Assembly (NCBI RefSeq): GCF_008729015.1
Contig: NZ_RKSM01000001.1
Coordinates: 2,170,001 to 2,234,000, forward strand
Source: Haloarcula sp. CBA1129
GTDB lineage: Archaea > Halobacteriota > Halobacteria > Halobacteriales > Haloarculaceae
Length of the DNA: 64,000 nt
Reading direction: 5' to 3'
Positions 49,942-63,800 of this stretch are shown here, one piece after another. Position 1 is the first letter of the stretch, and each line of letters opens with the position of its first letter. Below the pieces are notes generated by a model, which was not told the origin of the DNA, did not search any database, and saw nothing but the letters and a program-made list of their open reading frames with translations. The position numbers and the translations under genes were made by a program.

Positions 49942-51156
49942 TCAGGCGAAGGTCCGCGACACTTCTTCGTCGTCGGTCTCTTCCTGCTGGATCTTCTCCC
50001 AAGCGTTGTGGAAGTCCGCCATCGTGACCTCTGTCCGGTCGTCGCGGATGGCGAACATCCCGGCTTCGGTACAGATGGCCTTCACGTCAGCACCGGAGGC
50101 GTCCGTTATCTCCTCGGCCAGCGACTCGAAGTCCACATCGTCGGAGACGTTCATGCTGCGAGTGTGGATCTGGAAGATCTGCTTGCGACCCTCGACATCC
50201 GGGTTCGGGACTTCGATGAGGCGGTCGAAGCGGCCGGGACGGAGGATGGCGCGGTCGAGCATGTCGAAGCGGTTCGTCGCGGCGATGATGCGGATGTCGC
50301 CGCGGTCGTCGAACCCATCCATCTCCGAGAGCAGTTGCATCATCGTCCGCTGGACCTCGGCGTCGCCGGAAGTCTTCGACTCCGTCCGCTTGGCTGCGAT
50401 AGCGTCGATCTCGTCGATGAAGACGACGGCGGGCTCTTCCTGACGGGCCAGTTCGAACAGGTCACGGACCAGCTTCGCGCCCTCGCCGATGAATTTATGG
50501 ACCAGCTCGGAGCCGGCCATCTTGATGAACGTCGCGTCGGTCTCGTTGGCGACGGCCTTGGCGAGCATCGTCTTCCCGGTGCCGGGCGGGCCGTGCAGCA
50601 GGACGCCGCTCGGCGGATCGATGCCGACGTCTTCGAACATTTCGGGGCTCTTCAGCGGCATCTCGACGGTCTCGCGGACCTCTTCCATCTGCTCTTCGAT
50701 GCCACCGATGTCGGCGAAGGTGACGTCCGGCGACTGGTCGACCTGCATGACGCGGGCACGAACGTCGGTCTCGTCGTCGAGCTGTTTGACGATAGAGAGG
50801 GAGTTGTTGACAGCGACGCGGTCGTCGGGTTCGAGGTCCTCACGCATCTCGTCGGTGACCTCTGTCAGGGCCTCCTGATTGTTGCCGTGCTGTTTGATAA
50901 TCACGCCGTCACTGGACAGCTCTTGGACGGTGGCGACAAACAGCGGCGACTGCTTGAGCTTCTTGTTCTCGTGCGTGAGCCGTTCGAGCTTCTGCTGGTA
51001 CTTGTTGTTCTCAGCGTTCGCGTCAAGCAGCTTGTCGCGCATCTCCTCGTTCTGGGATTCGAGCACCTCCAGCCGCTCCTGCAGCGCCTCGATCTTCTGT
51101 TGCTGAGACGCGTCATCGTCGTACGGCATGTCGACCTCATCGACGGTGTCGGTCAT
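49942..51156 (-). CDS. pan: Proteasome-activating nucleotidase
   Basis: A 404-residue AAA+ ATPase that unfolds proteins for the 20S proteasome. The N-terminal coiled coil (about residues 12-65, [20 protein letters not shown]) precedes the OB domain and the AAA domain. In the latter are Walker [13 protein letters not shown], Walker [15 protein letters not shown], and the second region of homology, [17 protein letters not shown]. The last residues are SRTFA, with Phe where the HbYX docking motif has Tyr. The start ATG 51156 is followed at once by an acidic N-terminus. Confidence 0.96.
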
Positions 51157-51311: not shown

Positions 51312-52052
51312 ATGCCAACCGACCGCGAAGAAGTCCTCATCGTGGGCGGGGGCGTCGCCGGACTTTCGGCGGCGATCTACACCGCTCGCGCCGACCTGTC
51401 GACACGAATTATCTCGACCGGCGAGTCGATACTGAACCGCAACGCCCATCTGGAGAACTATCCCGGATTCCCGGCCGGAATCAATCCGCGACTCCTGCTC
51501 GAACTGATGCGCGCACAGGCACGGCGGGCCGGGGTCTGGTTCATCGACGGCGAGGCCGAGCAGGTAGAGCGAGTCGACGGGGGCTTCGAGGTATCCTGTT
51601 CTGACGGCGAGTCCTACGACGCGACGTATCTCATCGCCGCGTCTTGGTCTGACCCGTCGTATCTAGAGGGACTGGACATCTCGCTCGTCGACCGTGGTTC
51701 GAAACAGTTCATCTCAACCGACGAGCAGGGCCGAACCGATATCGAGGGGCTGTACGCGGCTGGTCGGCTGGCCGAGCAGCACCACCAGACCATCGTCGCC
51801 GCGGGCCACGGCGCACAGGTCGGACTCACGCTGCTGGAAGACTCCGACGTCGACTTCTATCACGACTGGACCGCGCCTGAAGGGTACTTCACCGGCCGCG
51901 ACCGCCCGGTCCCGCCGGGCTGTGAGGAGATTGATGAGACAGAGCGTAAGCAGCGCGAACAGGAGTCGCTGGAAGTCATGCAGCGGTACTTCGAGGAGCC
52001 GATGCCGGGCGAGCCGACGATGCACCCGAGCGTCGATCAGGATTCAGACTGA
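51312..52052 (+). CDS. TrxR-like FAD-dependent protein lacking the NADPH domain
   Basis: A 246-residue flavoprotein. The FAD motif VLIVGGGVAGLSAAIYTARA is at residue 8. Later come LNRNAHLENYPGFPAGINPR and the second FAD motif TDIEGLYAAGRLAEQHHQTI near residues 149-168, giving an FAD-domain-only layout. The intervening NADPH-binding domain and the redox CxxC of thioredoxin reductase are absent; only two isolated Cys occur. It is therefore unlikely to reduce thioredoxin. The start ATG 51312 begins the family; longer frames upstream are unsupported. Its 3' end overlaps the convergent htpX gene. Confidence 0.85.
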   Translation: MPTDREEVLIVGGGVAGLSAAIYTARADLSTRIISTGESILNRNAHLENYPGFPAGINPRLLLELMRAQARRAGVWFIDGEAEQVERVDGGFEVSCSDGESYDATYLIAASWSDPSYLEGLDISLVDRGSKQFISTDEQGRTDIEGLYAAGRLAEQHHQTIVAAGHGAQVGLTLLEDSDVDFYHDWTAPEGYFTGRDRPVPPGCEEIDETERKQREQESLEVMQRYFEEPMPGEPTMHPSVDQDSD

Positions 52053-53105
52053 CCCTGTTTCGAGCGAGCGCGCGACGGACTGCAGCCGCTCGATTCGCTC
52101 GGTCGTCGGCGGATGTGACCGCGTTTCGATGGACAGTGAGTCAGTTGCCGTCGCGGTTCCGAACCCGTGTGGGAGAAAGCACAGTCCGCGGATGCCCGCG
52201 TACGCGGAGCGTTTGTCTGTCTCCGGACGGTCGTCGCCCTCGCCAGCAAGAGTTTCTAGCGCGGCGACAAGCGCGGCGGGGTCCCCGGTCAACTGCGCTG
52301 CGCCCCGGTCGGCGGCGAACTCCCGGGCGCGCGACAGCGAGCGCCCGAGGACGACGACGGGCGCGGTGAACACGCCCAGCGCGACGCCGCCGAACAGGAC
52401 CGTCACCGCGAAGAGAAACAGAAACCCCAGCGTGAACGAGAGGCTTCCGAACGGGGCGTCAAGCACCCGAGCGCTGAACACGTAGGCGAGACCGAGCGCG
52501 ACCAGCCCGACTACGTATCGGCTCCCGCCCGGACGCAGGTCCGAAAGCGGGTCGTACTCGCCGTTGGTCAGCGACGGGAGGAAGCTGGCCAGCGTCATGA
52601 CCGTCGCGTCGCGGTTGGCGACGTGCATGAGTTCGTGGGCCAGCACCGCATCGAGTTCGTCGCCCGCAAGCGTCGAGAGGAGCCCCTCGCTGACGACGAC
52701 CGTCGCGCCGCCGAGCGTCCCGATGGCGAAGCTGTTCGGCACGTCGGCGTCCGCAACGGCGATCTGTGGCGGCGTGAGGTCGGCCAGTTGCGCGAGGCGT
52801 TGCACCCGTTCGTGGAGGTCGGGGTACTCATCGGGGCCGACAATTCGGGCGTCGACTTCGGCCATCGTCTGCGCTCTGGTGTAGCGAAGCTGTGCCCAGA
52901 CGAACGCCACAAGCGCGGGGGCGAGAATGGCCACCCACCAAGCGATGCGTGCCGATGCCCCACCGAACGGGAGGGCAGTCGCGACGGCGTCCCGCACCGG
53001 CACAAGCCATGGCGTCAAGAGCGCTGCCGTGGTGGCTACCACCGCGATATCGACGGCGAGGAGGAGCAGGAGGGTCCACAGGATACGGCGTGTCAGTGTC
53101 CGCAT
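52044..53105 (-). CDS. htpX: HtpX-like M48 membrane protease
   Basis: A 353-residue protease. The zinc motif HELMH is near residues 157-161, within DELDAVLAHELMHVANRDA. A Glu-containing segment near 240-275 (LSRAREFAADRGAAQLTGDP) supplies the third ligand. Four hydrophobic segments flank it (two near 10-70, two between 190 and 240). It acts in membrane protein quality control. The start ATG 53105 (MRTLTRR) is chosen because the 19 preceding residues are basic and unlike the family. Confidence 0.93.
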   Translation of the reverse strand: MRTLTRRILWTLLLLLAVDIAVVATTAALLTPWLVPVRDAVATALPFGGASARIAWWVAILAPALVAFVWAQLRYTRAQTMAEVDARIVGPDEYPDLHERVQRLAQLADLTPPQIAVADADVPNSFAIGTLGGATVVVSEGLLSTLAGDELDAVLAHELMHVANRDATVMTLASFLPSLTNGEYDPLSDLRPGGSRYVVGLVALGLAYVFSARVLDAPFGSLSFTLGFLFLFAVTVLFGGVALGVFTAPVVVLGRSLSRAREFAADRGAAQLTGDPAALVAALETLAGEGDDRPETDKRSAYAGIRGLCFLPHGFGTATATDSLSIETRSHPPTTERIERLQSVARSLETGSV

Positions 53106-53172
53106 ATGGTTAGTTCTGCTAGATCCACCGCGAATGAAAGGTTTTCTGCTCCGACAGCCCAAGGGTGAGGAA

Positions 53173-53180
53173 AATATTTA
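53173..53180 (+). promoter_or_regulatory. TATA-like element of the DUF4129 operon
   Basis: AATATTTA is centred 29 bases before the GTG start at 53206, in the usual archaeal position; a leaderless transcript is likely. Confidence 0.55.
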
Positions 53181-53205: not shown

Positions 53206-54315
53206 GTGTCAACAAAGCTGGTTCGTGCCGCCCTCGCCCTCCTCTGTGCGGTCGCTGTCCTGTTCGGCACAGCGCTGTTCCCCGGCGCGCTCGGCGTCGA
53301 ATTCGAGTCGAGCGGCCCCCTCGACAGCCAAGCGAACGAGCCGGTCACGCCCGACGGTACAGCACCCGGCGAAGTCGACAGTGGGCCGACGCCGGTAGCG
53401 ACAATCACGGATTCAGAGACAACGACGGAACCGAGCGACGAACAGGAGTCCACAGCGACGCCAACACCGACGGAGACGGCGACAGAGACGCCGGCAGCCA
53501 GCGAGGGCGGAGACAGTGTGTCGCCCGTGCTAGTGAAACTGCTTGGGCTGGCGCTGATCGGCGGGTTCGGCGTCGTCGCAGTCGGGGTCATCCGAGCGGC
53601 ATCGAACGCGGAGCACGACGGGTCGACAGACGCCGGGCTCCTCCTGCATCCGCTCGTCGACAAACTGGTCGGCACGGTCGCCGGGGCGGTCGCAGACGGT
53701 GCAATTGGCCGGGCTATCGGCCGGATTCCACAGGTAACGACCGCCGCGCTGCTCTCGGGAGCGTCAGCGCTCTCACGAGTCGGAGCCGGCGTCAGTGCCG
53801 TCTCTAGCGGCGTCCTGACGGGGTTAGCGACTGGCATCGGGTCGGTCGGCACGATGTCATTGCGAGGGGTCGCCGGTCTGCCGAGCGCCCTCGGGTCGCT
53901 CTCGGTCGCGCCGTTCAAAGCCCTCAGCGGCTTCGGTGGAACCGGCGGGTTCCTTGCCTCGGTTCGAGATGGTGTCGACAGCCCATCGCTGTTTGGCTCG
54001 TCGGCGGCAGAGTCCAGCCAGTCGACGGCCACCGAATCGACGGCAGAAGCGGACGACGGGCCGGACATCGATTCACTGTCGATACAAGAGGCATGGGCAC
54101 TGCTTGCCGACCGCGTATCTGTGCCGGACCCTGAGACAGCGACGCCCGGAGAGTACGCCCGCCGGGCCATCGATAGCGGGCTGCCGGCCGAGCCCGTTCG
54201 CCGGCTGACCGTCCAGTTTCGAGAGGTCACATACGGCGGGAAATCGGCGACTGGAGAGCGAACTGAGGCGGCTCGTAACGCCCTCAGACAACTCCTCAGC
54301 AGGGGTGGCGACTGA
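53206..54315 (+). CDS. DUF4129-type membrane protein, first gene of the DUF58 operon
   Basis: A 369-residue protein. An N-terminal membrane helix (residues about 6-25) precedes a Ser/Thr/Pro/Glu-rich extracellular-type linker (40-105). A second helix lies near 111-130, then a Gly/Ala-rich middle region, and a C-terminal DUF4129-like domain: LSIQEAWALLADRVSVPDPE, TPGEYARRAIDSGLPAEPVR and TVQFREVTYGGKS. The start is a GTG at 53206. DUF4129 domains usually accompany transglutaminase, DUF58 and MoxR proteins in operons of unclear membrane function. It overlaps the next gene by one base. Confidence 0.8.
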   Translation: MSTKLVRAALALLCAVAVLFGTALFPGALGVEFESSGPLDSQANEPVTPDGTAPGEVDSGPTPVATITDSETTTEPSDEQESTATPTPTETATETPAASEGGDSVSPVLVKLLGLALIGGFGVVAVGVIRAASNAEHDGSTDAGLLLHPLVDKLVGTVAGAVADGAIGRAIGRIPQVTTAALLSGASALSRVGAGVSAVSSGVLTGLATGIGSVGTMSLRGVAGLPSALGSLSVAPFKALSGFGGTGGFLASVRDGVDSPSLFGSSAAESSQSTATESTAEADDGPDIDSLSIQEAWALLADRVSVPDPETATPGEYARRAIDSGLPAEPVRRLTVQFREVTYGGKSATGERTEAARNALRQLLSRGGD

Positions 54316-55058
54316 TGAGTGACGCGGAGTCCAAACAGGGAGAAACTGCCAGCGTAACCATCGATGTCAGTGTCGAACGCCCGACACCGGGACGCAGGTT
54401 CGTCCAATACACCCTGCTAGGACTCGCCGCGCTTGCTGGGGCAGTGTTCGTCGTCACCTTCCCTTCAGTTCTGCCGGACGTTGGTAGCGGGACGGCCAGA
54501 CAGCTCCAGTTCGTTGCAAGTGTCAGTGCCGCTGTAATCGGTCTGTTCGGCCTGTACACTGTCGTACGGACACAGGACTCCGATCTTCCACCGGTGAAGG
54601 GGAGCCAGCCGCGTGACCCGTACCACGACCGCGACACCGACGACGAGCCGGCGGCGCTGCTTGCTGCGCTGTTAGAACCCGAAACGACGCAGTCGGAATC
54701 CGGGGATCTGGTCGGCGATGATATCGACGAGCTACTCGCAAAGATCGACGGGCGTGTCGACCCCTACAACGGCCTCGAAGCGAGCTATGCGTCCGAGGTC
54801 AGGAACAGGCTCCGCGAGGCCGCGCGACAGATGCTGGTCGAAACGGCGGATATGTCGATGGAGGCAGCGGCCCGGGGAGTCCGTACTGGTTCGTGGACGG
54901 ACAACCGCCGGGCGGCCGCCTTCCTCGGCGGCCCGGACGCGCCCGATCCACCAATCGAGATGCAGTTACGAGACTGGGCCAGCGGCGAGGGATTCGACCG
55001 GAAAGTTGCGGCGGCGGCGGCCGAGATACGGCGGCTCCAGCGGGGTGAGCGGGCATGA
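54315..55058 (+). CDS. DUF7269-like membrane protein
   Basis: A 247-residue protein with two N-terminal helices (about residues 29-50 and 64-86) and a soluble C-terminal domain. The C-terminal domain contains KIDGRVDPYNGLEASYASEV and AARGVRTGSWTDNRRAAAFL. I associate it with the DUF7269 family. It overlaps the DUF4129 gene by one base (TGATG) and the DUF58 gene by four (ATGA), so all three are coupled. The Arg/Ala-rich C-terminus may contact the other operon proteins. Confidence 0.72.
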   Translation: MSDAESKQGETASVTIDVSVERPTPGRRFVQYTLLGLAALAGAVFVVTFPSVLPDVGSGTARQLQFVASVSAAVIGLFGLYTVVRTQDSDLPPVKGSQPRDPYHDRDTDDEPAALLAALLEPETTQSESGDLVGDDIDELLAKIDGRVDPYNGLEASYASEVRNRLREAARQMLVETADMSMEAAARGVRTGSWTDNRRAAAFLGGPDAPDPPIEMQLRDWASGEGFDRKVAAAAAEIRRLQRGERA

Positions 55059-56380
55059 ACACGCGCGAAACGTCACAGCGTAACGTCGGCGTCTCGGCCG
55101 CGCTGGTGGCTGGCGGGGTCGGTATCGTCACTGGGAACCCGACGGTTTTCATGGTCGCGGCAGTGGCGCTGGTGTACGCGGCCTATCAGGCGGCTATCGG
55201 TGACCCTGAGCCGACGCTCACGGTCGAGCGGCACGTCGACCCGGCCGACCCGCTCCCCGGTTCGGAGGTGACCGTAACGCTGACGCTCACGAACGGCGGA
55301 GACGCGACACTGCCCGATGTTCGCGTCCTCGACGGCGTTCCGGAGCGGCTGGAAGTCGTGGGGGGGTCCCCGCGGTTCGGGACCCACCTCGAAGCCGGGG
55401 CGTCGGATTCAGTCACCTACACCGTCGAAGCCCGGCGCGGCGACCACGCCTTCACCGACGTGGCGGTCGTCTGCCGGAACCTGACCGGGACTGTCGAGTT
55501 CGCCGAACAGGTCCCCGTCGAGACGACGCTGTCGTGCAGTGCGAGCGTCGACACCGTCCCGCTCTCGGGCCAGACGCTCGCACAGTCCGGGCGCGTCCCG
55601 ACGAACGCCGGCGGGAACGGGCTCGCCTTCTACGCCATCCGCGAGCACCAGTCCACAGACCCGATGAGCCGCGTCGACTGGAACCGCCTCGCGAAGACGA
55701 ACGAGCTGGCGACAGTCGAGTTCAAGGAGACGCGAGCGGCCACCGTCATCACGCTCGTGGATAGTCGACATCACGTTGCAGGCGAGGCGAACGCGCCCAC
55801 CGCCGTCCAGTTCTGTGCCTACGCGGCCCGGCAGGTCGGCTCGGCGCTCCTAGGGATGGATAACCGCGTCGGTGCCGCCATCTACGACAGTTGCGAGACG
55901 CTACAGCCGTCGGCGAATCGTGCACAGGAACAGCGATTGGAGGCGTTCCTGAGTACGGTCGTGAGTGGGGCTGCGACCGGTTCATCGCGGTCCCGCGGTT
56001 CAGCACTCCTCAACACCGGCACCCGAACCCGGCGAACGCAGTCGCCGACCGGAACGGCGGACCGGTACGGCATCACCGACGGCGGTGACGCAGTAGCGAC
56101 GCTCGACCGCTCGATTCCGAGCGAGTCACAGGTCGTGTTCTGCACGCCCCTACTCGACGACCGGGCGGCCGATGCGGCAAAGCGGCTCGCTGCGTACGGG
56201 CACGCGGTCACGGTCGTCAGCCCGGACATGACAACTGGGGATAGCCCGGGCAGCACCGTCGAGCGAATCGACCGAACTGCTCGCCTCGACGGCCTTCGAG
56301 GCACGGTTCGAGTCGTCGATTGGACGCCAGCGGAACCGCTCGCCAAAGCTCTCATTCATGCAACGGAGCGGTGGGCATGA
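55055..56380 (+). CDS. DUF58 domain protein
   Basis: A 441-residue protein. Two N-terminal helices (about residues 10-45) precede a beta-sandwich domain (50-170, with DPLPGSEVTVTLTLTNGGDA). The DUF58 core then follows: DPMSRVDWNRLAKTNELATV and EFKETRAATVITLVDSRHH. The last part is vWA-like (VVFCTPLLDDRAADAAKRLA). DUF58 proteins are usually next to a MoxR AAA+ ATPase; here that gene is not adjacent. It overlaps both neighbours. Confidence 0.9.
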   Translation: MNTRETSQRNVGVSAALVAGGVGIVTGNPTVFMVAAVALVYAAYQAAIGDPEPTLTVERHVDPADPLPGSEVTVTLTLTNGGDATLPDVRVLDGVPERLEVVGGSPRFGTHLEAGASDSVTYTVEARRGDHAFTDVAVVCRNLTGTVEFAEQVPVETTLSCSASVDTVPLSGQTLAQSGRVPTNAGGNGLAFYAIREHQSTDPMSRVDWNRLAKTNELATVEFKETRAATVITLVDSRHHVAGEANAPTAVQFCAYAARQVGSALLGMDNRVGAAIYDSCETLQPSANRAQEQRLEAFLSTVVSGAATGSSRSRGSALLNTGTRTRRTQSPTGTADRYGITDGGDAVATLDRSIPSESQVVFCTPLLDDRAADAAKRLAAYGHAVTVVSPDMTTGDSPGSTVERIDRTARLDGLRGTVRVVDWTPAEPLAKALIHATERWA

Positions 56381-57942
56381 CGGCGCTCGACAGTCGGCCG
56401 GCGGCGGCGAGCGCGGCGCTGGCCGGAACAGTCGCGGTGCTCGTCTCGCTCGGTCTCGGCGTCGCCACCGGAGAGCCGAGAGCCGTACTGACCGGCTTCG
56501 TCGGCGGGCTCTGTATCGCGGCCGGGGTCTGGGCGCTCCGTAGCGACGCACACACGCGCATCGCCGGCGGCAGCGTCGCCATCATCATCGGCGCGGGCGT
56601 GTTCTGTGGGACCGCGCTGTTGGCCCCCGACTACTGGTCGCTCGTTGTGGCACTCGGGTTCCCGCTGGCCGCGACACTCGTTGTTATCGACGCGAGTAGC
56701 GGACTGGTACTGCCGACCGATGAAACGGACGACCTCTCGGCCATGCTCGATGAGAGTTTCGTGGTGCTGCTTGTCGGCATCGGCAGCACAATCGTCTGTG
56801 CCGTCGCCGCCGCCGTCAGGCTGCCTTGGGTGCTCGTCCGGGTCGTCGGTGACTTCTCGGTCCACCCGCTCGTGGGCTTCGTGACGCTACAGGCCGGGGT
56901 CCTCCTCGCTCTGTTGTTGCTGGACTGGGCCACAGAGACGCTGGAGTCGTGGATTCCGGCAGCCACGGCGACGACGGACCGGGCGCTTGGGCGGCTACGG
57001 CTGCTGGGGACGAGCTGGTGGGACATCGACCGCTACGTCAAAGCCGCTGTGGGCCTGCAGGTGCTCGTGGCGTTTGTCCCGACAGCACAGGGACTGTTCG
57101 ACCGCTTCCTCGACAATCTCCCGGTGCTCGGGCCGGCGCTTCGGTTTGCCCTCAGTGGCCCCCTTCACCTTCCGCTCGCGGTTGGACTCCTAGCCTTGCT
57201 GGGTATCCTTGTCGCCGAACGGCTCCGGCAGTGGCTGCTGCAATGGCTCGGGGACGACCCCGGGCGGTCACTGGCACGGCAGGCCGGCAGTATCGTGATC
57301 CCTGTGGGACTGCTGCTGGGCGCGCTGGTCCTTACAGCCGCCGGCGTGACCCGTCAAGTAGCCCCCACGTATACCGGGGGCGGCCACTACGGCTCAGCGA
57401 CCGTCCTCCTCCTCGGCATCTTGATTTCGGTCGTCGCCCTTCGGGGGCTCATCGCGCTGCTGGCCGAACTAGTGAGTGTGGAGTTGCTGTCCCGACAGGT
57501 GGCAGGGTTCGCGGCCGGAAGCGGTCTCCTGTTCGTCATGACGGTGCTCGGAGCGGAGCGCGGACTCGCACCGATACTCGTCCTCATCGGGAGCGCGGCG
57601 GCGTTGCTTGTCTGGGATGCCGGTGCGCACGCCAGTAGCATCGGCCACCAGCTGGGCCGGGACGCCGAGACGACGGACAGCGAGTTCGTCCACGTCACTG
57701 GGACGGCGGCCGTCCTCTCCGGCGCAATCTTGCTCGTCATGCTCGTCAGATACGTGCTCATCCCGGTCGCGGTGCCGACAACACCGGCCGAACTCTCGTT
57801 CAGTTCGGTGGTCGCACTCGGACTGGTCTTGCTGGCGATAGCCGCGTTCACCCTCGCACTGAACGCACACGATGGGGGGCCACGTACCAGCAGTGACAGA
57901 AGCGGTACTCGGAGCGATCAGGCCGTCAATGACAGCGACTAG
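56377..57942 (+). CDS. Polytopic membrane protein of the DUF58 operon (DUF7519-like)
   Basis: A 521-residue protein with about 12 membrane helices spread over the length, no soluble domain, and a short acidic Ser/Thr tail. I associate it with the haloarchaeal DUF7519 family. ATG 56377 overlaps the DUF58 stop by four bases. A channel, transporter or membrane-embedded enzyme role is possible; no catalytic motif is visible. It ends the four-gene operon before coaBC. Confidence 0.72.
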   Translation: MTALDSRPAAASAALAGTVAVLVSLGLGVATGEPRAVLTGFVGGLCIAAGVWALRSDAHTRIAGGSVAIIIGAGVFCGTALLAPDYWSLVVALGFPLAATLVVIDASSGLVLPTDETDDLSAMLDESFVVLLVGIGSTIVCAVAAAVRLPWVLVRVVGDFSVHPLVGFVTLQAGVLLALLLLDWATETLESWIPAATATTDRALGRLRLLGTSWWDIDRYVKAAVGLQVLVAFVPTAQGLFDRFLDNLPVLGPALRFALSGPLHLPLAVGLLALLGILVAERLRQWLLQWLGDDPGRSLARQAGSIVIPVGLLLGALVLTAAGVTRQVAPTYTGGGHYGSATVLLLGILISVVALRGLIALLAELVSVELLSRQVAGFAAGSGLLFVMTVLGAERGLAPILVLIGSAAALLVWDAGAHASSIGHQLGRDAETTDSEFVHVTGTAAVLSGAILLVMLVRYVLIPVAVPTTPAELSFSSVVALGLVLLAIAAFTLALNAHDGGPRTSSDRSGTRSDQAVNDSD

Positions 57943-57993: not shown

Positions 57994-59160
57994 ATGCTGA
58001 CCGGAGTTAACGTCGTTCTGGGGGTGTCGGGGTCTATCGCGGCCGTCAAGACGGTGGAACTCGCACACGAACTCCGACGACAGGGCGCGTCCGTCCGGGC
58101 CGTGATGACCGACAGCGCGACAGGCATTATCCACCCGTGGGCGCTGTCGTTCGCGACGGACAACGAGGTGGTGACCGAAATCACGGGCAGCGTCGAACAC
58201 GTCGAACTCTGCGGGCGCTCGGGCTGGGGGGACGTGCTCTTGCTCGCACCGGCGACGGCAAATACCGTCGGCAAGGTCGCCGGGGCAATCGACGACACGC
58301 CCGTGACGACGTGTGCGACGACTGCTCTCGGTGCTGACGTCCCGGTCGTCGTCGCGCCAGCGATGCACGAACCGATGTACGACCATCCCGGCGTGCTGGA
58401 CGCTATCGACCGCGTCGAGTCATGGGGCGTCGATTTCGTTGACCCGCGAATCGAGGAGGGAAAGGCCAAAATCGCAACTGAGGAGGCCATCGTCACGGCG
58501 ACCGCACGGGCCACGGGCGACCGGCCGCTTTCGGGAGAGCACGTCGTCGTGACCGCGGGCGCGACCACGGAGTCGGTCGATCCCGTGCGGACGCTCTCAA
58601 ATCGCTCCTCGGGACGGACCGGCCGGGCAGTCGCGCGGGCCTGTTACGCCCGTGGAGCAGACGTGACACTCGTCCACGACGGACCGGACGTGCCGTACGC
58701 CACCGTCGAGCAGGCCGAATCCGCCGCGGAGATGACCGAGGCCGTCCGCCGGGTCGCTGGTTCGGCCGACGCACTGGTCTCGGCGGCCGCCATCTCGGAT
58801 TACACCGTCGAGGAAGCCCCTGAGAAGATCAAGAGCGGGCAGGCAGAGTTGACGCTGACGCTCGAACCGACGCCGAAACTCATCGACACTGTCCGGGCTG
58901 ACCACCCGGCCCTCCCCATCGTCGGGTTCAAAGTCGAAACCGAAGGCGATGACGAGACGCTGGTCGAACGCGCCCGGGAGATACGCGAGCGGGCCGGACT
59001 GGCCTTCGTGGTCGCCAACGACGCGGGCGTCATGGGCGACGACGAGACGCGTGCCCTGCTCGTCGACGCAGACTCGGCGACGGAGTACGTCGGCAAAAAG
59101 GAGGGGCTCGGCGCTCGTGTCGCCGACGAACTCGGTGACCATCTGTCCAGTCGCGACTGA
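57994..59160 (+). CDS. coaBC: Bifunctional phosphopantothenoylcysteine decarboxylase/phosphopantothenate-cysteine ligase
   Basis: A 388-residue CoaBC that makes 4'-phosphopantetheine in CoA synthesis. The FMN-dependent decarboxylase half starts VNVVLGVSGSIAAVKTVELA and has LLLAPATANTVGKVAGAIDD and PAMHEPMY. The ligase half has VVVTAGATTESVDPVRTLSN, RSSGRTGRAVARACYARGAD and AAAISDYTVEEA. Both halves and order match the family. It is transcribed with or just after the DUF58 operon. Confidence 0.95.
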   Translation: MLTGVNVVLGVSGSIAAVKTVELAHELRRQGASVRAVMTDSATGIIHPWALSFATDNEVVTEITGSVEHVELCGRSGWGDVLLLAPATANTVGKVAGAIDDTPVTTCATTALGADVPVVVAPAMHEPMYDHPGVLDAIDRVESWGVDFVDPRIEEGKAKIATEEAIVTATARATGDRPLSGEHVVVTAGATTESVDPVRTLSNRSSGRTGRAVARACYARGADVTLVHDGPDVPYATVEQAESAAEMTEAVRRVAGSADALVSAAAISDYTVEEAPEKIKSGQAELTLTLEPTPKLIDTVRADHPALPIVGFKVETEGDDETLVERAREIRERAGLAFVVANDAGVMGDDETRALLVDADSATEYVGKKEGLGARVADELGDHLSSRD

Positions 59161-59263: not shown

Positions 59264-60355
59264 GTGACTGTACCACCACCCCGTCGCCTGCTCGTGCCAG
59301 TAGCCGATTCGGTGACGGTCCGGAACACCGTCGCCTACGCCGTTGAACAGGCCGAATCGGCGGCCAGAGAGGGACAGCAGCGGGTGTCGCTGCACCTCGT
59401 CGCCGTCGCAAGCACGCGCGCCGTCGACCCCGACGCTCAGACGGAACTCGGCCAAGCCAAGGACCTGCTCGACCGCATCGAGGTCTGGCTCGCCGAAGAT
59501 CTGGGCGCTGACCCGCCGTCGAATCTCGACGTTGAACTGGGCGTCATCGGTGCCGACCGCTACCTGTTCAGCCCCGGCGATTACGCCGACGCGATACTGG
59601 CCTACGCTGACGAACACAGCATTGAGCGGGTCGTCCTCGATCCGGAGTTCAACCCGGGTGGGACGACGCCGATGCTCCGGCCGCTCGAAGTCGAACTCGT
59701 CCGGGGCGATGTCGAGGTCGAGACCGCACCAGTCGAGCGGCCGGCGCGGTCGACCGCGCTCGCTCGCGCCGCGACGCTCCCGAAGTATCTCACTATTTTC
59801 GGGGCGTCGTACCTGTTTTATTTGCTGTTGAGTTCGTACAAACCGCTGGATTTCCTCACTGGCGCGATAACGGCGACGATTGTCACTGCATTGCTTGCGC
59901 CAATCGCGTTCAGTCGCCAGCCGTCGCTGACTCGGGTTCCGGGACAGGCCGCTCGGCTGGCCCTCTACATCCCGTACCTCCTCAAAGAGATCGCCGTCGC
60001 AAACCTCGAAATCGCCTACGTCGTCTTGCACCCGTCACTACCAATCGACCCGGAAATGGTCGAACTGGAGGCCGCAATCTGGGGGGACGGGCCGGTGACG
60101 ACGCTGGCAAACAGCATCACGCTGACGCCCGGAACACTCACGGTCAGCGTCTCCGAGCAGGCGTTCGATATCCATTCGCTCACTGGCGGGGCGCGCGAAG
60201 ATCTATTCGAGGGCGGCCTTGAGAGGGCCGTCCGGTTCGTTTTCTACGGCCGGGAGGCAGCCGCGATTCCCTCGCCGCGCGAACGAGGGCAAGGGGACGA
60301 CAACGACCCCATCGAGAGCGACATCGGCGACCCGGAGGTGACCGATGATGATTGA
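59264..60355 (+). CDS. mnhE: Mrp/Mnh antiporter subunit E with an N-terminal Usp-like domain
   Basis: A 363-residue fusion. Residues 1-150 form a Usp-like alpha/beta domain (RRLLVPVADSVTVRNTVAYA at the start; AYADEHSIERVVLDPEFNPG later). From about 165 to 310 is MnhE/MrpE: YLFYLLLSSYKPLDFLTGAI, YIPYLLKEIAVANLEIAYVV, and TTLANSITLTPGTLTVSVS. The start is a GTG at 59264. It opens the antiporter operon, which exchanges Na+ (or K+) for H+. The Usp domain is not part of bacterial MrpE and may sense nucleotide or stress. Confidence 0.9.
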   Translation: MTVPPPRRLLVPVADSVTVRNTVAYAVEQAESAAREGQQRVSLHLVAVASTRAVDPDAQTELGQAKDLLDRIEVWLAEDLGADPPSNLDVELGVIGADRYLFSPGDYADAILAYADEHSIERVVLDPEFNPGGTTPMLRPLEVELVRGDVEVETAPVERPARSTALARAATLPKYLTIFGASYLFYLLLSSYKPLDFLTGAITATIVTALLAPIAFSRQPSLTRVPGQAARLALYIPYLLKEIAVANLEIAYVVLHPSLPIDPEMVELEAAIWGDGPVTTLANSITLTPGTLTVSVSEQAFDIHSLTGGAREDLFEGGLERAVRFVFYGREAAAIPSPRERGQGDDNDPIESDIGDPEVTDDD

Positions 60356-60623
60356 GTTCGAGGCGGCGCTACTTACGATCGCCAGCGCGTTCGTCCTGTT
60401 CGCTATCGTGTCGCTGTACCGCGTGTTCGCGGGGCCGACGGACCACGACAGAGTCATCGCAGTCAACGTGATGGGGACGAACACCGTCATCGCTATCGCG
60501 CTCGTCTCCGGCGCGCTCGATAAGCCGCTGTTCCTCGATATCGCGCTCGTGTACGCCCTGCTGAACTTCCTGCTCTCGATAGCGTTCTCGAAGTTCAACG
60601 TCGAGCACGGGGGTGTGCTATGA
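60345..60623 (+). CDS. mnhF: Mrp/Mnh antiporter subunit F
   Basis: A 92-residue protein with three helices: LLTIASAFVLFAIVSLYRVF, AGPTDHDRVIAVNVMGTNTV and LDIALVYALLNFLLSIAFSK. It has the conserved GPTxxDRV motif of MrpF. It overlaps the mnhE end by 11 bases (or 8 if ATG 60348 is used). Confidence 0.93.
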   Translation: MMIEFEAALLTIASAFVLFAIVSLYRVFAGPTDHDRVIAVNVMGTNTVIAIALVSGALDKPLFLDIALVYALLNFLLSIAFSKFNVEHGGVL

Positions 60624-60940
60624 CGCCGCTGGAGTGGGGTATCGTCGCGCTCGCACTGGTGGGTGCGTTCTTCGCTGGCGTCGCCTCGATCGGCATCGTC
60701 AGGTTGCCGGACGTGTACACTCGCACACACGCGGCGTCGAAAAGCGATACGCTGGGAGCCGTCCTCGCTATCGCTGCTGCCGCGCTCGCGATTCAGACCG
60801 ACCTCGCGACCATCAAGGCCGTCTTCCTGCTTGTGTTCATGTTTCTGACGAACCCCACCGCCGCCCACGCCATCGCCCGGGCGGCACAGGATCAGGGTAT
60901 CGAGCCGTGGACTGCCGGCGATGAGGAGGGAGAGTCATGA
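60620..60940 (+). CDS. mnhG: Mrp/Mnh antiporter subunit G
   Basis: A 106-residue three-helix subunit. The MrpG motif GIVRLPDVYTRTHAASKSDT lies near residues 29-48. The helices ALVGAFFAGVASI and ATIKAVFLLVFMFLTNPTAA flank it, and an acidic tail ends it. It overlaps mnhF by four bases (ATGA) and the next gene by four. Confidence 0.93.
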   Translation: MTPLEWGIVALALVGAFFAGVASIGIVRLPDVYTRTHAASKSDTLGAVLAIAAAALAIQTDLATIKAVFLLVFMFLTNPTAAHAIARAAQDQGIEPWTAGDEEGES

Positions 60941-61482
60941 CGCTCTCGCTCATCGAGGGACTGTTGCTGGTATTCGTGCTGGGCTGTGCTATCGGCGCAG
61001 CTGTACTCCGTGACGTGCTGGCGTCGCTGATGGCGTTTGCCGCCTACAGCCTCGGCATTTCCATTATCTGGGTGATGCTTGAGGCCCCCGACGTGGGGCT
61101 GACCGAAGCGGCTGTCGGGGCCGGCATCATGACGATCCTGTTCATCTTGGCGCTAGCAAACACCGTTCGGCCACAGGAGAACGGCCTGTTCGAGTCGATC
61201 AGCGTCCGGACCGTCGTGCTGGTCGGCGCGTTCGTCGTCGTCATGATTGCGACCGTTCCGTCACTGCCCGCTGTTGGAGCAGAGGGCGCGGCAAACCCAG
61301 TCGTCAGCGGCGAAGTGACACAGTACTACATCGACAACGCGTACGCAGACACGGAGGTCCACAACGCGGTAACTGCTGTGCTCGCGGCCTACCGTGGATT
61401 CGATACGCTGGGTGAGGCAGTCGTGGTCTTCTCAGCCGGGGTCGCGGCACTGACCGTCCTCAGGCAGGAGGTGTTCGCATGA
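60937..61482 (+). CDS. MbhD/E-type hydrophobic subunit (DUF4040) of the Mrp antiporter
   Basis: A 181-residue protein with about five helices. The N-terminal part is a DUF4040 (MbhD) region: LRDVLASLMAFAAYSLGISI, MLEAPDVGLTEAAVGAG. The C-terminal part is MbhE-like (VLAAYRGFDTLGEAVVVFSA). These are the portions that in bacteria form the C-terminal end of MrpA. It overlaps both neighbours. Confidence 0.85.
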   Translation: MTLSLIEGLLLVFVLGCAIGAAVLRDVLASLMAFAAYSLGISIIWVMLEAPDVGLTEAAVGAGIMTILFILALANTVRPQENGLFESISVRTVVLVGAFVVVMIATVPSLPAVGAEGAANPVVSGEVTQYYIDNAYADTEVHNAVTAVLAAYRGFDTLGEAVVVFSAGVAALTVLRQEVFA

Positions 61483-61952
61483 GTAGCGACGAGCGAACTG
61501 GGCTGTACGTCGAGAGCACGATTATCATGACGACGGTCCGCGTGGTGTCGCCGTTCGTGCTCACCTTTGCCCTGTTCGTGATGTTCCACGGGGCGAACTC
61601 CCCCGGCGGCGGATTTCAGGGCGGGGTCATCGCTGGCTCAGTCGTGATGATGCTCGCTTTCGCCTACGGCATCGACGCGGCCCGTGAGTGGCTCGATGTC
61701 CGCGTCGTCGCAGCGCTCGCGTCCGGCGGCGTGCTCACGTTCGCAGCAATCGGGCTGGGAACGATTCTCCTTGGGGGGAACTTCCTCGAATATCACCTGT
61801 ACGAACAGTTCGTCTCGCACGCGACCGCGTACGGCATCGAACTCGTTGAACTGGGCATCGGTGGCATCGTCGCCAGCGTCGCCATCGGCCTCTTTTTCCT
61901 GCTTGCGGCCGGGTTCGGCCACGCCGTCGACTCACCGGAGGATGAGAGCTAA
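61479..61952 (+). CDS. mnhB: Mrp/Mnh antiporter subunit B
   Basis: A 157-residue subunit with four helices. The MrpB motifs are VSPFVLTFALFVMFHGANSP, PGGGFQGGVIAGSVVMMLAF and HLYEQFVSHATAYGIELVEL. It overlaps the upstream gene by four bases and mnhC by one (TAATG). Confidence 0.93.
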   Translation: MSSDERTGLYVESTIIMTTVRVVSPFVLTFALFVMFHGANSPGGGFQGGVIAGSVVMMLAFAYGIDAAREWLDVRVVAALASGGVLTFAAIGLGTILLGGNFLEYHLYEQFVSHATAYGIELVELGIGGIVASVAIGLFFLLAAGFGHAVDSPEDES

Positions 61953-62308
61953 TGTTTGAACTGCTGAACTCACATTACAACTACTTCGCAGTGATGCTCC
62001 TGCTGGGTATCGGCCTCTACATGCTCATCGAGTCCCAGAACCTCGTAAAGAAGGTCATCGGGATGAACATCTTCCAGACGGGCATCTTCCTGTTTTTCAT
62101 CACGCTTGCGTTCAGGGCCGGCGGAAACCCGCCGATAATCGAGGAGGGTGGCGGCCCCTACGTCAGCCCGCTACCACACGTCCTCATCCTGACCGCTATC
62201 GTCGTCGGGGTGAGTCTGACCGCCGTGGCACTGGCGCTTATCATCCGCATCTACACCGAGTACGGCACACTGGACGAAGACAAACTCAAACAGCTCTACT
62301 ATGATTGA
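61952..62308 (+). CDS. mnhC: Mrp/Mnh antiporter subunit C (NuoK-like)
   Basis: A 118-residue NuoK-like subunit. Three helices include MLLLGIGLYMLIESQNLVKK, VIGMNIFQTGIFLFFITLAF and HVLILTAIVVGVSLTAVALA. Position and size fit MrpC, which relates to complex I subunit NuoK and takes part in the proton-translocation path. Confidence 0.93.
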   Translation: MFELLNSHYNYFAVMLLLGIGLYMLIESQNLVKKVIGMNIFQTGIFLFFITLAFRAGGNPPIIEEGGGPYVSPLPHVLILTAIVVGVSLTAVALALIIRIYTEYGTLDEDKLKQLYYD

Positions 62309-63800
62309 ACAACTCCCTGTGTTGCTGGTGGTCCTGCCGATTGTCGGCGGCGCGGTGCCGCTGGTCGCCAGCCTCGTGAGCGACCGGGCCGGGTGGCCCA
62401 TCGCGACGCTGACGCTCGTCGGACAGGCTGGCTTGGCCGGCCTGCTCGCGTGGACCGTCAGCGCGAGCGGGACCGTTTCCTACGCGGTCGGTGGTTTCGC
62501 CGCCCCGTACGGTATCGAACTCGTCGTCGACGGGCTTTCGGGGGCCGTTGCCCTGCTCGTGGCCGTCGTGTCCCTAGGCGTGCTCGCGTACGCCCGGCAG
62601 GCCGGCCCGCACTCGAACCCCTTCTATGGCCTGTACCTCCTGTTGGTCGCCGGCCTGACGGGTATGACGATCACCGGCGACGTGTTCAATCTCTACGTGT
62701 TCCTCGAAATCACGGGGCTTGCGGCGTACGGCCTCGTGGCGAGCGGCCGGGACGCCAGTGCCGCTGTCGCGGCGCTGAAGTACCTCATTATCGGGACCGT
62801 CGGGGCCTCGTTGTATCTGCTCGGCATCGGCTACCTGCTCGCGGCAACGGGCACGCTCAACATGGCCGACCTCGCCGAGAAGCTCGGTTCGATGGCGGCC
62901 TACGACTCGACGCTGGTCCTGACCGCCTTCGGGCTGATGGTCGGCGGGCTGACGGTGAAGGTGGCCCTGTTCCCCCTGCACACTTGGCAGCCCGACGCCT
63001 ACGCGAACGCCCCAGATACGGTAAGCGCGTTCATTTCCGCGCTCGTCTCGACAGTCTCGGCGTACGCGCTCGCTCGCCTGCTGTTTTCCGTGTTCACCGT
63101 GGAGTTCCTGACGGCCGTGCCAGTCGCCCGCTGGGCGCTGGTCGGCTTGGCCTGCGTGAGCATCATTGCGGGGAGCGCGCTCGCCGTCTCGCAGGACAGC
63201 GTCCAGCGGATGCTCGCGTACTCCTCGGTGTCGCAGTTCGGTCTTGTCGTCGCCGGGTTCGCCATCGCAACCCCGCTTGCCGTCGTCGGCGCAACCGTCC
63301 ACCTGCTCGGTCACGCAGTGATGAAAGGCGGGCTGTTCGCCGCGACGGGCATCATCGAGCGCAAGACGGGCGCGACAACTGTGAACGGCTACGCCGGGAT
63401 GGGGAGCCGCGTCCCGCTCACGGCGTTTTCCTTTGCCGTGCTCTCGCTGGCGATGGTCGGGGTTCCACCGGCAATCGGCTTCGTCGGCAAGTGGTACATC
63501 GTCCTCGGCGCGGTCAACGCAGGGAGCTGGCCGGTCGTGGCCGTATTGCTTGCGAGTACGCTGCTGACGCTCGCGTACTTCGCCCGCCTCGTCGAGCGGC
63601 TCTACTTCGCAGAAGCGACCATCCACTCGGAGGATGCGTCTGGGGAGGCCCCCGTCACGGACGGGAGCGGACAAGCGGTCTCGTTCGGGATGGTTGCCGT
63701 CGTCGTCATCGCAGCCGTTCTCGCGGTCGCGCTGACCGCAGCCGTCCCGGCGCTTGAACAGGTGCTTCGAGAAACGCTTCTACCCATTCTAAACCAATGA
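62301..63800 (+). CDS. mnhD: Mrp/Mnh antiporter subunit D (NuoN/L/M-like)
   Basis: A 499-residue proton-conducting subunit with about 14 helices. The core includes NLYVFLEITGLAAYGLVASG (conserved Glu), GLTVKVALFPLHTWQPDAYA (Lys and His channel region), and AYSSVSQFGLVVAGFAIATP. It belongs to the NuoL/M/N antiporter family. It overlaps mnhC by eight bases and the next gene by four (ATGA). Confidence 0.93.
   Translation: MIEQLPVLLVVLPIVGGAVPLVASLVSDRAGWPIATLTLVGQAGLAGLLAWTVSASGTVSYAVGGFAAPYGIELVVDGLSGAVALLVAVVSLGVLAYARQAGPHSNPFYGLYLLLVAGLTGMTITGDVFNLYVFLEITGLAAYGLVASGRDASAAVAALKYLIIGTVGASLYLLGIGYLLAATGTLNMADLAEKLGSMAAYDSTLVLTAFGLMVGGLTVKVALFPLHTWQPDAYANAPDTVSAFISALVSTVSAYALARLLFSVFTVEFLTAVPVARWALVGLACVSIIAGSALAVSQDSVQRMLAYSSVSQFGLVVAGFAIATPLAVVGATVHLLGHAVMKGGLFAATGIIERKTGATTVNGYAGMGSRVPLTAFSFAVLSLAMVGVPPAIGFVGKWYIVLGAVNAGSWPVVAVLLASTLLTLAYFARLVERLYFAEATIHSEDASGEAPVTDGSGQAVSFGMVAVVVIAAVLAVALTAAVPALEQVLRETLLPILNQ

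Follow-up and report, generated by a model that had tools for sequence, protein, structure and literature searches.

By gene order and family content, the four-gene operon that we describe here from Haloarcula sp. CBA1129 is a MoxR-less, transglutaminase-less paralog of the haloarchaeal MoxR/DUF58 module. It lies within a window of 64,000 nucleotides (the whole stretch analysed, G000:C1:2170001-2234000 of the host genome), and we think it likely that a module-specific MoxR serves it in trans and remodels a membrane complex. MoxR/VWA pairs are widespread, but the targets of only a few are known, and gene adjacency is what usually decides which partners are matched.

A compact four-gene operon

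The operon genes, g1 to g4, and the features around them are as follows.

52044..53105, - strand: HtpX-like M48 membrane metalloprotease, the upstream neighbour, divergent from g1
53170..53180, + strand: TATA-like element GAAAATATTTA, 25 bases before the GTG at 53206, conserved in orthologs as GAAARTATTTA
53206 (GTG)-54315, + strand: g1, DUF4129 protein, 369 aa (DUF4129, E 7e-14)
54315-55058, + strand: g2, DUF7269 protein, 247 aa (DUF7269, E 1e-22)
55055-56380, + strand: g3, DUF58 protein, 441 aa (DUF58, E 1e-8, above the Pfam cut-off)
55760..55768, + strand: MIDAS motif site of g3, with D-S-R (D-S-R-H-H) in place of D-x-S-x-S
56377-57942, + strand: g4, long DUF7519 protein, 521 aa (DUF7519, E 3e-14, match at 57400-57813)
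57994..59160, + strand: DFP/CoaBC flavoprotein, 51 bases downstream of g4, a neighbour conserved in the genus

Consecutive genes overlap by 1, 4 and 4 bases, a pattern shared by the orthologs, and their order, DUF4129-DUF7269-DUF58-DUF7519, is that of the haloarchaeal DUF7269/DUF7519 module. Measured against three orthologous loci, each of the four genes has an NG86 dN/dS within 0.11-0.29; on these ratios they are under purifying selection and are therefore no chance ORFs. The operon, its domains and its overlaps of 1-4 bases are as the original prediction had read them from the letters alone. The GTG at 53206 is kept in 10/10 aligned orthologs, and the TATA-like element ahead of it suggests a leaderless g1 transcript that would start near the start codon. 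An ATG at 53134 was rejected as the g1 start because the codon is not conserved.

The first protein consists of a helix, an 81-residue Thr/Pro-rich acidic loop, a second helix and a 243-residue tail, predicted to be cytoplasmic, that ends in DUF4129 (54085-54288). DUF4129 is its sole match above cut-off, and neither Transglut_core nor TgpA_N was matched. TgpA-like transglutaminases likewise end in a DUF4129 that follows their last membrane helix, and the end-domain of g1 is that of the TgpA-like protein in a paralogous operon of the same genome (L050, below), which has Transglut_core, minus the transglutaminase. In g2, two helices at the N-terminus precede a soluble tail of 163 residues. In g3, an N-terminal membrane hairpin (helices 12-26 and 29-47 in the structure model) is followed by an Ig-like domain (about 55217-55519) and a VWA-like DUF58 domain (55637-56161), modelled as Ig-like and alpha/beta domains, and other Haloarcula species have DUF58 proteins 86-92% identical to it. 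A fold search with g3 put Ig-like domains on top (e.g. TRAP subunits), a result uninformative for function. Judged by hydropathy and charge, g1, g2 and g3 would have their soluble regions in the cytoplasm, where a MoxR is expected. For g4, about 12 helices had been foreseen; we count 14 hydropathy peaks, and 14-15 long helices in the structure model (pLDDT 82.6). Its DUF7519 fold had no PDB match below E 0.2 and no sequence match either.

Among the Halobacteria genomes, 120/145 have DUF7269 above cut-off, and DUF7519 had no match outside the order in the sampled genomes of the phylum. PADLOC matched none of the four proteins to a defence system, and NCBIfam gave them no name except for one DUF11 repeat. 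We did not find DUF7519 or DUF7269 mentioned in the literature available to us, and the Haloferax motility and shape literature that we examined contained no MoxR, DUF58 or transglutaminase terms.

As predicted, the operon adjoins neither a MoxR nor a transglutaminase; its immediate neighbours are the M48 protease and DFP/CoaBC. The M48 gene is HtpX-like, yet below the NCBIfam cut-offs, and its divergent pairing with the operon recurs in other genera and families (L101, L103 and L172; three families), which makes the protease a possible functional partner. DFP/CoaBC is probably functionally unrelated. Farther out, the genus also conserves a gene for a proteasome-activating nucleotidase (AAA; 49942-51156, - strand) and a probable Mrp-type cation antiporter cluster (59312-63800, + strand).

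Paralogous operons in the host genome

The host genome contains seven DUF58 regions, five MoxRs, three DUF7519 genes and three DUF7269 genes, the last two families falling into three paralogous operons: the window operon, L050 and L054. The closest is L050, a neighbouring group on the DUF58 tree that shares gene order, families, a long DUF7519 and the D-x-R site of DUF58. It encodes a transglutaminase-DUF4129 protein (919 aa), DUF7269, DUF58, the long DUF7519 and a SHOCT protein, with a convergent MoxR facing the operon. The window operon, in contrast, has no transglutaminase domain in g1 and no adjacent MoxR, and is accompanied by the divergent M48 protease. The L054 operon (L054:7238-11310) has a short DUF7519, lies directly behind a delta-aminolevulinate dehydratase gene and is without a MoxR. 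Operons of its type are kept throughout the genus and recur in two further genera of the same family (L130, L155), and none of those sampled has a MoxR nearby.

Two further host sets recall known systems. L053 (G000:C1:1252001-1267000) combines a MoxR, a DUF4350 protein and an FtsX-like permease, and resembles the predicted archaeal secretion or membrane-remodelling set of arCOG01314 (DUF4350), a vWA/Ig protein and MoxR (PMC5898192); its DUF58 is also without a clean MIDAS motif. The window operon is similar to the arCOG01314 set in its Ig-like plus VWA protein, its membrane partners and the involvement of a MoxR-family ATPase, but it has no DUF4350 gene, and the host's DUF4350 set, L053, has its own MoxR. 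L052 (G000:C1:1418001-1434000) is a Bat-like set of BatA/VWA proteins, a coiled-coil protein, MoxR and DUF58, the last being the only host DUF58 in which we saw a canonical MIDAS (DTSAS). Unlike the Bat aerotolerance operon, the window operon has no BatA-type VWA proteins.

Linkage to MoxR is unstable among relatives

We compared 120 loci of 12-16 kb, in which genes were called with a simple home-made codon-based caller and labelled with purpose-built profiles, and judged MoxR adjacency within 6-8 kb. The premise that DUF58 and DUF4129 modules usually travel with a MoxR is right. In this sample, a MoxR lies within 6 kb in 58/116 sampled haloarchaeal module operons and is absent in 58/116, with no missed MoxR detected in the unlinked loci by low-threshold HMM or tblastn. 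Most of the 58 linked MoxRs are downstream and face the operon (51); four are downstream on the same strand and three upstream. Throughout the sampled genus Haloarcula the four genes stay together, and no sampled ortholog of the window-type locus has a MoxR within about 8 kb (HMM and tblastn). Most of these haloarchaeal module operons have no transglutaminase, and the window operon is unexceptional in this respect.

On a quick, unrooted DUF58 tree, MoxR linkage changes at least 12 times. The window DUF58 belongs to a 33-row clade (SH-aLRT 99, on the quick tree) that includes MoxR- and transglutaminase-linked operons. The original prediction had counted a MoxR within the same operon of relatives against itself, and one M48-linked relative has this arrangement: in L172, from another genus of the family and with the same divergent M48 gene, MoxR is the fifth operon gene, 24 bases downstream on the same strand. 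Given L172 and the position of the window clade among MoxR-linked operons, loss of linkage appears likelier than gain, although the tree is unrooted. The idea of an undescribed complex is thus only partly supported: with L172, and with MoxR adjacent to about half of the operons, the set is better seen as one form of the known MoxR/VWA modules than as something unrelated to them. Its D-x-R site and a DUF7519 fold without a solved match are unusual.

DUF7269 and DUF58 form a single ORF (575-684 aa) in 23 loci (L069, L076, L078, L082, L088, L093, L114, L122, L124, L128, L133, L136, L139, L140, L143, L144, L146, L147, L159, L161, L162, L164 and L171). These fusions suggest that the two proteins are in direct contact, and they help the case that g1-g4 would form one complex. 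In another genome, G160, a DUF7269 gene (G160:C1:1408848-1409210) is interrupted by a TAG and its match is truncated; it lies about 3.8 kb from a MoxR, and this module is possibly decaying.

A MoxR clade that tracks the module, and its orphan member in the host

A genome search for an unlinked MoxR had been proposed with the original prediction; the host has two MoxRs of a module-specific clade. One of them (G000:C1:1942925-1943872; 6925-7872 of L049) lies about 280 kb from the window operon and has no DUF58 neighbour; the second is at 2618444-2619397. The orphan groups with the MoxRs of L078, L082 and L088 (100/97 on the MoxR tree), to which it is 82-85% identical. These three loci share the orphan's flanking genes, for a DUF2070 protein, a 136-aa protein and a sulfatase, and still have an operon of DUF4129, fused DUF7269-DUF58 and DUF7519 that faces the MoxR; the host site is without the operon. 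This arrangement indicates that the orphan outlived the loss of its own cis operon. Its Walker A (DVPGTGKT) and Walker B (VVLADE) motifs are intact, it is 97-98% identical in close relatives, and the MoxR of the M48-linked L172 operon belongs to the same 8-row clade (96/91).

With the orphan as query in 144 Halobacteria genomes, and the clade defined by at least 59% identity, every genome with DUF7269 above cut-off had a clade MoxR (119/119; best E in each genome 1e-123 or better), against 0/25 of the genomes without the module (best E about 4e-88). In many multi-module genomes, this co-occurrence (uncorrected Fisher p about 1e-28) could be carried by MoxR-linked modules alone. Six genera hold both states, with and without the module, and all agree with the co-occurrence, so that shared ancestry weighs less on it. 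Generic MoxRs, at 53% identity or less, do not track the module and occur in most genomes with or without it; the three in the host have their own DUF58/VWA partners. Eight genomes (G006, G027, G103, G011, G132, G087, G136 and G085) each have just one module and one clade MoxR, separated by 135-607 kb, which argues that service in trans is general, and 19/20 sampled clade MoxR loci away from the main operon have no module gene. Two draft assemblies, G072 and G129, are without both module and clade MoxR, though congeners carry both unlinked. From the co-occurrence and from the genomes that keep both partners unlinked, we conclude that the module would normally need its MoxR, but not next to it. 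The ATPase of the window operon had been left as acting from elsewhere or as dispensable; elsewhere is the better option, and 119/119 against 0/25 speaks against dispensability.

The VWA site of g3

Like the VWA partner in NorQ/NorD (PMC9976466), g3 is a membrane VWA protein expected to work with a MoxR hexamer, and a MoxR clade co-occurs with its module. It differs from NorD in that its VWA family is DUF58, its MoxR is unlinked, it has no known target and the MIDAS D-x-S-x-S is missing. As in other MoxR/DUF58 (VWA) modules, g3 has the N-terminal hairpin and a cognate MoxR is encoded in the genome; an adjacent MoxR and the MIDAS motif are the two hallmarks that the window operon lacks. Across the subfamily alignment, D is present in 71/71 and R in 66/71 members at the D-x-R site, with S at the third motif position in 1/71, and the pattern is the same with or without a MoxR nearby. 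The altered site is therefore no sign of MoxR loss, and MIDAS decay was rejected as the reason for that loss. In NorQ/NorD the VWA domain sits on the MoxR hexamer, and the MIDAS, essential in NorD for target engagement, contacts the target and not the ATPase (PMC9976466). Since the serines of that motif are replaced here, the D-x-R subfamily may, by analogy, have kept the ATPase side while binding its target differently. The same analogy would also count the absent motif against a MoxR acting in trans.

A model for service in trans

In the model that we favour, g4, with its about 14 helices, would be the membrane core, g3 a VWA adaptor anchored in the membrane and facing the cytoplasm, and g2 and the DUF4129 tail of g1 helical partners on that side. 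A MoxR hexamer encoded elsewhere would engage the VWA protein in trans, the best candidate being the orphan and the next the second clade MoxR, and would spend ATP to assemble or remodel the complex. Together with the divergent HtpX-like protease, the system might act in membrane-protein maturation or quality control; this role, a guess from the gene neighbourhood, is the least certain step.

The operon might instead depend on another MoxR, that of the L050 transglutaminase operon or one of the three generic ones, which we consider unlikely if a serious contender. The L050 MoxR is in the orphan's own clade, and on the DUF58 tree its operon comes closer to the window type; the orphan, however, is conserved in close relatives despite having no cis partner, and the generic MoxRs are present regardless of the module and have partners of their own. 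Slightly less plausible still is a static membrane complex of g1-g4 that works independently of MoxR, the clade MoxRs serving other modules only. The lack of a MoxR near any sampled genus ortholog would fit this, as would a host module with its own MoxR (L050), and a VWA site without MIDAS could mean that no target is remodelled at the expense of ATP. Against it, MoxR-linked members have an identical D-x-R site, the eight genomes described above pair one unlinked module with one unlinked clade MoxR only, and G072 and G129 lack both partners. That the operon is a functionless, decaying paralog is very improbable: transglutaminase and MoxR partners are lost relative to the L050 type, but the low dN/dS, the conserved overlaps and promoter element, and retention throughout the sampled genus all oppose decay. 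We thus retain the model in which an ATPase is needed and probably acts on the window operon in trans.

More broadly, and tentatively, these operons may represent an ATP-driven membrane machine specific to haloarchaea. Several paralogous complexes would then share one or two dedicated MoxRs, which would act on them in trans through a D-x-R DUF58 adaptor and a DUF7519 core of unseen fold. Adjacency fails for the window operon, and here co-occurrence and the site of a lost operon name a specific candidate trans partner for an orphan VWA module. A reading from neighbours alone would go wrong for about half of these operons. Which ATPase acts on which membrane complex thereby becomes a testable question in tractable haloarchaea.
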